Below are positions 61,464 through 63,911 of a stretch of DNA of 64,000 nucleotides, piece after piece; positions within the stretch are counted from its first letter, which is position 1, and every line of letters starts with the position of its first letter. The stretch is from Pseudohongiella nitratireducens (GTDB lineage: Bacteria > Pseudomonadota > Gammaproteobacteria > Pseudomonadales > Pseudohongiellaceae). The stretch spans positions 124,001 through 188,000 of the forward strand of contig NZ_LWHM01000016.1 of assembly GCF_001642735.1 (NCBI RefSeq), read 5' to 3'. Made by a program: the position numbers and the translations under genes. The notes under the pieces are model-generated. The model saw only the letters and a program-made list of their open reading frames with translations, ran no database searches and had not been told where the DNA came from.

Positions 61464-61493
61464 ACTTGTTTTAACAAGTAATATATCGATAAT
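61464..61493 (+). promoter_or_regulatory. Candidate promoter/operator of the buf operon
   Basis: ACTTGTT, two bases, AACAAGT forms a perfect 16-base dyad (61464-61479). It overlaps a possible -35 (TTGTTT, 61466) whose -10 would be GATAAT (61488-61493), spacing 16. A regulator bound to the dyad would control bufABC. Regulator unknown. Confidence 0.4.
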
Positions 61494-61625: not shown

Positions 61626-62174
61626 ATGAATAGCTTTGCAATAAAGAGGTTAGCAATGAAAAAGACGGATGGAATCTCCATGGCCACAGCGGCCGCCGCC
61701 CTGATGATGGCTGGGCATGCTGGCGCAGGCATTGATGTCAGCAACAACAATGCCGAAGAACCCGTCAAAATCAGCGTTTGTCAGGATTTGCATGGTGCAG
61801 GTCAAAGCGCCTGTAACGGCGTTGGCAACGCTGCAGGCGCCGGGCAAAACACCGATGGTAGCGGCTTTGTTGCTATTTCCAGCGGTAACGATGCTTTTTC
61901 AGCGGCACTGTGTCAATTCGCTGGTGGTACAGAAGCCACTGCAGCCACGGCACCAGCAGAAGCCAGCCTTGCAGGTGATGCGGTCAAAGTCACCTACTGT
62001 AATGACGTGTTCACCTGTGCGGGCCTAAGTGCCTGTAAAGGCAATGACAATCCGAATGGCGCTGGACAGAATACCTGCCATGGTATCGGATTTGTTGGCA
62101 TTTACAGTGGCGAAAAAGCCCTGTCTGACCAGCTTTGTGAAAAGCTTGGCGGTACAGTTCTGTCCTCACTGTAA
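61626..62174 (+). CDS. bufA: Bufferin-type RiPP precursor, tandem two-repeat (BufA2-like)
   Basis: 182 residues. A signal peptide (about 11-35, MATAAAALMMAGHAGA) is followed by two related repeats: 47-102 and 120-177. Repeat 2 carries five Cys (125, 131, 137, 151, 171) in the bufferin pattern CxxxxxCAGxSACKG...GAGQNTCHGxGFV...LCEKLGG. Repeat 1 keeps three (52, 63, 96); the positions matching Cys131 and Cys151 are His-Gly and Asp. An Ala/Glu-rich linker (103-119) joins them. In known bufferins an MNIO enzyme converts Cys into metal-binding heterocycles before export. Two starts are plausible, each with its own site: 61626 (GGGAGAG) and 61656 (AAGAGG). Single-domain relatives are about half this length. 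Confidence 0.8.
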   Translation: MNSFAIKRLAMKKTDGISMATAAAALMMAGHAGAGIDVSNNNAEEPVKISVCQDLHGAGQSACNGVGNAAGAGQNTDGSGFVAISSGNDAFSAALCQFAGGTEATAATAPAEASLAGDAVKVTYCNDVFTCAGLSACKGNDNPNGAGQNTCHGIGFVGIYSGEKALSDQLCEKLGGTVLSSL

Positions 62175-62208
62175 TCTCAAGGCAGCCAGCCTGGCCAGTT
62201 ACCCCTGA

Positions 62209-62231
62209 CCAGGCTCATGCCTGGCGTTTTT
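62209..62231 (+). terminator. Terminator between bufA and bufB
   Basis: CCAGGC, loop TCAT, GCCTGG, then CGTTTTT. It lies 35 bases after the precursor stop and before the enzyme genes. Partial read-through would give more precursor than enzyme mRNA. Confidence 0.8.
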
Positions 62232-62262
62232 GACGCAACTCCCTTCTCTATTGAGCATTCAC

Positions 62263-63084
62263 ATGCTGGGTTTCGGACTTGGGCTGCGCAGCCCGCATTA
62301 TGATCAGGTACTCAATCAGCAGCCCACTGAAGTGGACTGGTTTGAGGTGATAACTGAAAACTTCCTTGCCCCCGGCGGACGCCCTCGCGCGATCCTGCGC
62401 CAGGTACGAGAACACTACCCCATCGTTTTACACGGTCTGTCCTTCAATATCGGCAGCGACGAAGCGCCAGATTATGCCTATCTTGATAAACTACGTGACC
62501 TGGCCCGGGAAATAGAGCCTGCCTGGATCTCCGACCATATTTGCTGGACCGGGCTGCACGGGCACACCTCGCACGATCTGCTGCCCATCTCCTACAACCA
62601 GGAAACACTCAGCCTGGTGGCGGACAAGGTATCCCGCATTCAGGATTATCTTGAGCAATCGGTGGTTCTGGAAAATCCTTCGATGTATTTACAGTTTCAG
62701 TCCGCCGACATGACAGAAGCCGACTTTATCAATGCACTGACGAAACAAACCGGATGCCGCTTACTACTGGACGTCAATAATGTTTATGTGAGCAGTTTTA
62801 ATCTCGGCCTGGATCCGTACCGCGAGATAAATGCCATCGCGCCTGAATCCGTACAGCAGTTTCACCTGGCCGGTCACACGCACAATACAACACATATTAT
62901 TGATACTCACGACCACCCGGTCAGTGATCCGGTCTGGGCGCTTTACCAGCATGCCTGTCAGCGCTTTGGCAAAACAGCAACCTTGCTGGAAAGAGATGAT
63001 GATATCCCTGAGATGACCGAACTGATCAAAGAGCTTGACCATGCCCGGCAATTACAAGCCCGGGCCCTGCAGGAATTGTCATGA
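62263..63084 (+). CDS. bufB: Multinuclear non-heme iron oxidase (MNIO, DUF692), bufferin maturase
   Basis: About 273 residues. TIM-barrel MNIO: GFGLGLRSPHY, LHGLSFNIG, WISDHICW, LENPSMYL, LLLDVNNVYVSSFN, FHLAGHTH, IDTHDHPVSDPVW and LERDDDIPE hold the His, Asp and Glu ligands of the di/tri-iron site. Family members (MbnB, BufB, TglH) oxidise Cys residues of peptide substrates. The ATG at 62263 is preferred; a TTG at 62230 lies within the terminator T run. It overlaps bufC by ATGA. Confidence 0.9.
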   Translation: MLGFGLGLRSPHYDQVLNQQPTEVDWFEVITENFLAPGGRPRAILRQVREHYPIVLHGLSFNIGSDEAPDYAYLDKLRDLAREIEPAWISDHICWTGLHGHTSHDLLPISYNQETLSLVADKVSRIQDYLEQSVVLENPSMYLQFQSADMTEADFINALTKQTGCRLLLDVNNVYVSSFNLGLDPYREINAIAPESVQQFHLAGHTHNTTHIIDTHDHPVSDPVWALYQHACQRFGKTATLLERDDDIPEMTELIKELDHARQLQARALQELS

Positions 63085-63911
63085 CCTGGCAGGAAGAACA
63101 GGCTGCCTTTTGGCATTGGATAGTGGATACCCCCGGCTCTGCTGCTCCGACAGAAGCGGAAAAGCTGATGGCGCCGCACCAGCAGTTATCAGTCAACGAT
63201 GCGCTGGGCATATACCAGAATGCCTACCGAGGAAGATTACTGCAGGCGGCCTCTGAACTCTACCCGGTCACTTATTACACGCTGGGCGATGCCGCTCACC
63301 AGCAACTGTGGCTAGGCTACCTTGAGAAGCACCCTCCTAAGCCCGGCCCCATGAGCCAACTGGGAGCATACCTGCTAACCTATTGTCGACAACATGACCC
63401 GTATCGTGGCCTGCCGGCATTACTGGAGTTGATAGCGCTGGAAACACGCCTGGTCGAACTTTTTGAGAACCCGGATTTACCTCACTACTCAAGAGAGCAG
63501 TTGCAAAACAACCCTGCAGAAGACTGGGCTAAGCTGAGTTGGACTGATACCGGAGACTGGACCTTGATGGAGGTAGACTTTGACCTGGAAACCTATTGGC
63601 TGAAGATCCAGGACTATCGCAAACAACCTGGCGCCAAACCGGGCGGCGCCGATTTCCCGGTGCCTGCTTTTACTGACCAGCACCCCCGGCACCTGTTAAT
63701 TCGTCGCCAGAATTACAAGATGCACTTTCAACAGGTCAGCCCGACATTTGCCGGCTTCATTTCTCTGCTTAAGGAGGGCAAGAACTTTGCGGAGCTGTGC
63801 GAATACCTCTCACAGCATGACTCAGAAACTGACGTACCGGCCAAAAGCCTGAATTATTTGCTTCAGGCCATCGACCTTGAATTACTGCACCAGCAAACGA
63901 TCAGGGCGTAA
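63081..63911 (+). CDS. bufC: DUF2063 partner protein of MNIO (BufC/HvfC-like)
   Basis: 276 residues. The N-terminal DUF2063 domain has WIVDTPG, the SVNDALGIYQNAYRGRLLQAASELYPV stretch (about 35-61) and YPVTYYTLGD; the C-terminal part (VDFDLETYWLKIQ, LIRRQNYKMHFQQVSPTFAGFISLL) is typical too. It is thought to bind the precursor leader and present it to the MNIO. The ATG overlaps the bufB stop (ATGA), so the two enzymes are translationally coupled. Confidence 0.88.
   Translation: MTWQEEQAAFWHWIVDTPGSAAPTEAEKLMAPHQQLSVNDALGIYQNAYRGRLLQAASELYPVTYYTLGDAAHQQLWLGYLEKHPPKPGPMSQLGAYLLTYCRQHDPYRGLPALLELIALETRLVELFENPDLPHYSREQLQNNPAEDWAKLSWTDTGDWTLMEVDFDLETYWLKIQDYRKQPGAKPGGADFPVPAFTDQHPRHLLIRRQNYKMHFQQVSPTFAGFISLLKEGKNFAELCEYLSQHDSETDVPAKSLNYLLQAIDLELLHQQTIRA

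Follow-up and report, generated by a model that had tools for sequence, protein, structure and literature searches.

Unequal cysteine content between the two repeats of a bufferin-like precursor from Pseudohongiella nitratireducens and its relatives

Introduction

In the Buf1 bufferins, the outer Cys residues form a disulphide bond and the inner Cys residues are converted to thiooxazoles (PMC12452194), while the modification of Buf2 is not identified in the available text of the published Buf2 work (PMC12452194). According to the same text, two-domain Buf2 precursors with 12 Cys residues in duplicated six-Cys domains are already known, and a Buf1/Buf1 fusion has also been reported. It is further described there as an open question how the MNIO enzymes and their DUF2063 partners recognize precursors that are as large as proteins and have a signal peptide in place of a leader (PMC12452194).

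Here we analyzed a stretch of 64,000 nt from Pseudohongiella nitratireducens (NZ_LWHM01000016.1, positions 124,001-188,000 of the forward strand), referred to as the window, and all coordinates are window positions. On the plus strand at 61626-63911, the genes for a precursor, an MNIO enzyme and a DUF2063 partner follow each other in the order bufA-bufB-bufC. As in the 12-Cys Buf2 system, as far as it is described in PMC12452194, the product of bufA is a Cys-rich precursor with a signal peptide-like N-terminus and two similar domains, encoded together with an MNIO enzyme and a DUF2063 protein. However, the Cys residues are distributed 6+6 there, but 3+5 in the window and 2-5 plus 4-6 in its relatives, and the window precursor stays below the cut-off of the BufA2 profile. 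The six-Cys loop pattern of the single-domain Buf2 proteins (NF050166) is recognisable in the second repeat, although those proteins have one domain and the window precursor has two. By analogy, the Buf1 (DUF2282) proteins of Caulobacter resemble the window precursor in the plan of an outer pair with inner Cys residues, and they share the MNIO and DUF2063 partners; in contrast, no DUF2282 match was found in the window precursor or its genome, and the window enzyme has the Asp typical of the Cys-Lys class. The captophorins and EGKCG oxazolins (Fon, Hvf, Mmr) also combine an MNIO enzyme with a DUF2063 partner, there a DUF2063-RRE protein, and precursor Cys residues would be the target in both cases, but the window precursor contains no EGKCG repeats, and the Phe of FonB-type enzymes is replaced by Asp.

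Materials and methods

Relatives were searched in 137 genomes of Pseudohongiellaceae, including that of the window. Cys totals per repeat and the state of the loop were counted on all 29 precursors found, while Cys counts per position and selection were taken from alignment A1, which holds 26 of the 29 (L013 and L018, duplicates, and L026, whose 5' end is cut, were left out). A2 and A3 cover 22 of the 27 GTDB loci, omitting L037, L041, L044, L045 and L050. The first and second enzyme trees contain 13 and 20 of the 29 family enzymes, respectively. They also include the enzymes of 8 of the 17 two-domain loci and of 45 of the 49 single-domain ones (44 for the second tree), and all are from loci whose stretch contains the enzyme. 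For the second tree, L104 and four rows classed as 'other' were removed after the first had been inspected. L026 has five Cys residues in repeat 1, and its tree label R1C4 is a trimming artefact. C1 to C6 denote the Cys residues of a six-Cys Buf2 domain.

Results and discussion

Organization of the buf operon

The three genes are uninterrupted open reading frames at 61626-62174 (182 aa), 62230-63084 (284 aa) and 63081-63911 (276 aa), and the features of the locus are collected in Table 1. Translation of bufA probably starts at 61656 rather than at 61626, judging from the homologous frames: 28 of 29 have a Met at the position equivalent to M11 (182-aa numbering) or a few residues earlier, with the starts chosen by pattern at that place, and the exception, L026, is cut by a contig end. 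The start of bufB may likewise be the ATG at 62263 instead of the TTG at 62230, as the match to the BufB family starts at residue 15 in the window enzyme and mostly at residues 8-12 in the relatives (range 1-20).

Table 1. Coordinates of the features of the buf locus in the window.
Feature	Position	Strand	Remarks
Promoter-like site CTTGTT-N17-GATAAT of the buf operon	61465..61493	+	upstream alignment; putative
bufA, two-domain Buf2-like precursor, 8 Cys	61656..62174	+	172 aa from conserved Met; 182 aa from 61626
Signal peptide-like N-terminus, residues 1-24 (172-aa numbering)	61656..61727	+	by inspection
Repeat 1, residues 36-93 (172-aa numbering)	61761..61934	+	Cys C1, C3, C6 only
Repeat 1 scaffold	61761-61787 + 61863-61934	+	flanks decayed loop
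Repeat 1 decayed Cys loop	61788-61862	+	
Repeat 2, residues 109-166 (172-aa numbering)	61980..62153	+	Cys C1, C2, C3, C5, C6
Repeat 2 scaffold	61980-62006 + 62085-62153	+	flanks Cys loop
Repeat 2 Cys loop	62007-62084	+	
Terminator-like hairpin CCAGGC-TCAT-GCCTGG then CGTTTTT, between bufA and bufB	62209..62224	+	perfect stem; whole region 62209-62236
bufB, MNIO bufferin maturase	62263..63084	+	NF050167 + PF05114 profile matches; alternative start TTG 62230
bufC, DUF2063 partner protein	63081..63911	+	PF09836 profile match

When the products were compared with profiles, the window enzyme matched the BufB profile (NCBIfam NF050167) with 352.8 bits, above the cut-off of 310, and PF05114 with 350.8 bits; it is the only MNIO match in its genome. 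The bufC product matched DUF2063 (PF09836) with 42.3 bits, exceeding the cut-off of 27.2, and two RRE-type profiles below their cut-offs (NGO1945_C, 16.8 bits against 27; HvfC model, 28.9 bits against 142). The bufABC architecture that the initial annotation had proposed is thus borne out by the gene order and by BufB and DUF2063 profiles over cut-off. The order bufA-bufB-bufC is kept in 26 of the 27 GTDB loci, and the remaining one (L045) is cut by a contig end.

For the precursor itself, the initial annotation had advised a profile search against the BufA1 and BufA2 families. The precursor matched the BufA2 profile (NCBIfam NF050166) with 35.6 bits (E 7.7e-9), yet did not reach the cut-off of 60, and none of the Pfam families matched it up to E 10, DUF2282 (PF10048) included; a DUF2282 precursor was not found in the window's genome either. 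When the repeats were scored singly, repeat 2 gave 28.8 bits and repeat 1 gave no match. The precursors of five relatives scored 57.3, 50.2, 43.4, 29.5 and 20.1 bits, also below 60, and since none of the six precursors attains the cut-off, the explanation that we favour below is weakened.

A gene encoding an SCP2-domain protein is located upstream of the operon. The sigma-70-like pattern CTTGTW-N17-GATAAT precedes the locus in 17 of the 19 relatives examined, which belong to the 27 GTDB loci, while a promoter scan of the window did not list the putative site of Table 1. No sigma-factor gene is present among the named neighbours, which are SCP2 in the window and UbiE, SCP2, OsmC and a Crp-type regulator in L034. 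The hairpin between bufA and bufB could possibly act as an attenuator that damps expression of the enzyme relative to the precursor, but three terminator-like sites occur in the scanned stretch against a mean of 2.7 in shuffled sequences, so that its evidence is weak. Because bufB begins nearer to bufA in several relatives, the hairpin is probably not general.

The precursor contains two unequal repeats

The N-terminus of the window BufA has a hydrophobic stretch and an AxA-like site, and AlphaFold2 places a helix at residues 3-19 with low confidence. Behind it, residues 43-102 and 116-177 (182-aa numbering) share 32 identical residues over an alignment of 62 columns. The BLOSUM62 score of this alignment was 131, compared with 30.4 +/- 5.9 (maximum 62) for shuffled sequences, and 0 of 2000 shuffles scored as high; when all Cys residues were masked, the score was 102 and still 0 of 2000 shuffles reached it. 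The internal repeat noticed in the initial annotation is real by this measure, with or without Cys, and its unequal Cys content is confirmed as well. Repeat 1 contains Cys52, Cys63 and Cys96, whereas repeat 2 contains Cys125, Cys131, Cys137, Cys151 and Cys171, so that the six Cys residues per domain characteristic of BufA2 are found in neither. Repeat 2 lacks C4, which is kept in 23 of the 26 aligned sequences, and the Lys after C3 is retained in repeat 2 but gone from repeat 1, where the sequence reads SACNG. It had also been claimed that Gly/His and Asp take the place of two Cys residues in repeat 1. We find that Cys131 and Cys151 are indeed without partners, but both face gaps beside the Gly/His and the Asp rather than these residues themselves.

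A similarity of this kind could arise by chance from low complexity, or through a frameshift or misassembly, and the records of 25 of the 27 GTDB relatives are titled as metagenome bins. The shuffling result with masked Cys residues speaks against this origin. Moreover, records not titled as bins show both states of the locus, namely Pseudohongiella sp. O18 (L044), in which the loop of repeat 1 is missing, and LSUCC0112 (L049), in which it is present, and the loop-less state also occurs in a genome of one contig (G033). On the shuffles, the non-bin records and the one-contig genome, we rejected chance or artefact as the origin of the repeats, and we regard it as practically negligible. A gene fusion or assembly artefact is excluded by the relatives, since both repeats are held by 29 of 29 family precursors, the window included.

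Cys residues and the inner loop are lost from repeat 1 in relatives

The precursor is present in 29 of the 137 Pseudohongiellaceae genomes and in three of eight genera, and MNIO genes occur in 32 genomes, three more than have the precursor. In one of these three (L130, G002:C65), a genome from another genus of the family, the MNIO gene stands beside a DUF2282 (Buf1) precursor (87.9 bits) instead. Among the 27 GTDB loci with the precursor, five are titled Pseudohongiella (Pseudohongiellaceae) and most others only Gammaproteobacteria. Two records are titled Rhodoferax sp. OV413 (L042) and Klebsiella pneumoniae (L055), yet they are metagenome bins and the titles look wrong; their precursors are 64% and 54% identical to that of the window over the best segment, respectively.

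Repeat 1 has fewer Cys residues than repeat 2 in 28 of the 29 precursors, and in one the numbers are equal. The counts in repeats 1 and 2 are 5 and 6 (eight precursors), 4 and 6 (seven), 2 and 6 (seven) and 3 and 6 (three), with one precursor each having 3 and 5 (the window), 4 and 5, 5 and 5, and 2 and 4. When we counted each position in the 26 aligned sequences, window included, repeat 1 had C1 in 26, C2 in 8, C3 in 19, C5 in 15 and C6 in 26, and C4, as read off the alignment, in none. The corresponding numbers for repeat 2 were 26 for C1, 25 for C2, 25 for C3, 23 for C4, 26 for C5 and 26 for C6. The initial annotation had called this precursor unusual; the asymmetry stands, but it is not a peculiarity of this gene, as a graded and recurrent loss runs through the 29 family genomes.

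The entire inner-Cys loop of repeat 1 is deleted in 8 of 29 precursors, while the domain itself is deleted in none. In the eight loop-less precursors the distance from C1 to the GG motif in repeat 1 is 29-30 residues, compared with 50-52 otherwise. On the BufB tree, which covers 20 of the 29 family enzymes, the loop-less state requires four changes at minimum, with several forks inside the family weakly supported on the BufB trees. Genus 1, together with L027 of genus 5, is separated from genus 6 with support of 100/99, and both loop-less and loop-bearing precursors are found on either side of this split, so at least two losses took place if lost loops were never regained. Sequence copied from repeat 2 could conceivably restore a lost loop in repeat 1.

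In the one-contig genome (L028, G033:C1), the loop of repeat 2 is partly gone in addition to that of repeat 1, leaving 2+4 Cys residues, and the Cys-Lys motif is absent, while the MNIO and partner genes are retained. In one loop-less relative (L027 / L046), the signal sequence ends in a lipobox-like LTGC, so that the precursor may be membrane-anchored.

One possibility raised in the initial annotation was that the two domains differ in metal affinity. Repeat 1 would then be a specialised second metal site (C1, C3 and C6 in the window) with fewer or no heterocycles. Of the 29 precursors, 21 retain C3 in repeat 1, and in 19 of these 21 it is followed by Lys, which would fit such a site. However, the whole loop including C3 has been lost repeatedly (8/29), and the Lys after C3 has disappeared from repeat 1 of the window itself, which makes a second metal site improbable in our judgement.

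The scaffold of repeat 1 is constrained like that of repeat 2

Selection on the loops and scaffolds was compared in four groups of relatives, of which group 3 contains groups 1 and 2; one group was analyzed without L010, and synonymous sites were near saturation in several. In the loop, pN was higher in repeat 1 than in repeat 2 in group 1 (0.103 vs 0.016, one-sided bootstrap P 0.009), group 2 (0.080 vs 0.000, P 0.0003) and group 3 (0.151 vs 0.069, P 0.027), while the difference in group 4 was not significant (0.069 vs 0.027, P 0.07). In contrast, the scaffolds of the two repeats did not differ in constraint in any of the four groups (P 0.42 to 0.85). Since the loop changes more while the scaffolds are equally constrained, repeat 1 is not simply a dying copy.

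Here, we need to consider plain decay, in which one loaded domain suffices for these bacteria and selection on repeat 1 is relaxed, its scaffold simply decaying later than the loop. The graded series of 5, 4, 3 and 2 Cys residues in repeat 1 is what such a process would leave. In the loop-less genus-6 group (four sequences), the scaffold of repeat 1 is also somewhat freer, with dN/dS of 0.15 compared with 0.10 for repeat 2, which fits slow decay and counts against a scaffold that is kept. On the contrary, the domain was lost in 0 of 29 genomes despite loss of the loop in eight, C1 and C6 of repeat 1 are present in 26 of 26 aligned sequences, and its scaffold is constrained like that of repeat 2 in the four groups, one of which contains two others. 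Considering both sides, we find plain decay unlikely.

A possible division of labour between the two domains

The operon, the repeats, the graded loss of Cys residues, the recurrent deletion of the loop and the constraint on the scaffolds are shown by the sequences, and on this basis we lean towards the explanation that repeat 1 is a structural or docking scaffold and repeat 2 the main substrate of BufB and BufC. In this model, bufABC would produce a periplasmic, MNIO-modified and probably copper-binding protein of two domains, each of which would fold into a small scaffold of the form beta-(Cys loop)-beta-alpha-beta that the outer pair C1-C6 closes, with the floppy inner loop (C2-C5) as the site of modification. 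The closure by C1-C6 and the modification of the repeat 2 loop by BufB/BufC are suggested by analogy with Buf1, because its outer Cys residues are disulphide-bonded and its inner ones become thiooxazoles. In Pseudohongiellaceae, the work would then be split between the domains: repeat 2 would keep its loop and serve as the main substrate, while repeat 1 would keep its scaffold and outer Cys pair, lose or have lost the loop, and now be used for structural support or for docking. In a narrower version, which we put forward tentatively, repeat 1 might be a 'pseudo-core', a duplicated substrate domain that is no longer modified and instead serves, within the same protein, to dock or fold repeat 2 and so present it to BufB/BufC, with the loop excised about four times independently and the disulphide-closed scaffold kept.

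Structure models were consulted for the order of elements only, as their mean pLDDT values were low (53.5 for the window precursor and 61.3 for the loop-less homologue L059). AlphaFold2 predicted strand-loop-strand-helix-strand twice in the window precursor, with block-mean pLDDT of 53-72 in the scaffolds and mostly below 50 in the loops. The same elements were predicted in L059 with higher confidence (block-mean pLDDT of 61-80 in repeat 1). A fold search of the PDB with these models gave no significant match.

A division of labour between two copies of a substrate domain, if true, would add something new to what is known of RiPP evolution. The family naturally separates scaffold Cys residues from those that are presumably modified, as the outer ones are kept in every aligned sequence and the inner ones are lost in one domain, and its loop-less and loop-bearing species provide a natural set of substrates for what each part does.

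Enzyme class and comparison with other Buf2 precursors

In Lys-Cys MNIOs the ERD motif is reported to be followed by Phe and in Cys-Lys MNIOs by Asp, and this Asp contacts the substrate Lys of BufA2 in a model (PMC12668002). The window BufB has Asp at this position, where the aligned 3bww has Phe. All 29 family enzymes, with that of the window among them, have Asp here, as do 40 of the 45 enzymes from single-domain Buf2 loci and 5 of the 8 from two-domain ones; since Phe occurs in 3 of the 45 and 3 of the 8, respectively, Asp is not a clean marker.

To see how often two repeats occur next to MNIO genes had been advised in the initial annotation. In 390 genomes of the order, 14 of the 34 BufA2 genes over cut-off contain two BufA2 matches in one frame, all 6+6, with G190 and G297, which are closely related, contributing two apiece. 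With three more genes from class and phylum searches, 17 of 17 ordinary two-domain genes have 6+6 Cys residues, defined as they are by two over-cut-off matches in one frame, a criterion that favours intact 6+6 genes. The two-repeat form, which the initial annotation had viewed as a potential subtype, has already been published as two-domain Buf2 (PMC12452194). When family profile A1 was applied to the 390 genomes, weak matches appeared in six genomes outside the family, all of them known Buf2 genes over cut-off. Within the sampled genomes, two-repeat precursors are common and unequal ones were seen only in Pseudohongiellaceae. In the literature searched, including the available text of PMC12452194, PMC12538549, PMC12668002 and PMC12509749, no precursor was found in which one of the domains had lost its modification sites; within that text, the Cys asymmetry and its pattern among relatives appear to be the new part.

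In 49 of 49 single-domain Buf2 loci, 47-62 residues separate C1 from the stop codon, too few for a second domain behind it. A Met lies 23-44 residues ahead of C1 in 48 of these 49, and a degenerate domain might still lie far upstream.

Two further Buf2-like precursors, L127 (G851:C18) and L128 (G862:C3), have an expanded Cys loop in frames with 10 and 13 Cys residues, respectively, the 13 including a lipobox-like Cys, and each adjoins another Buf2-like frame. Judging from these two, the Cys loop apparently becomes longer in some precursors and shorter in others.
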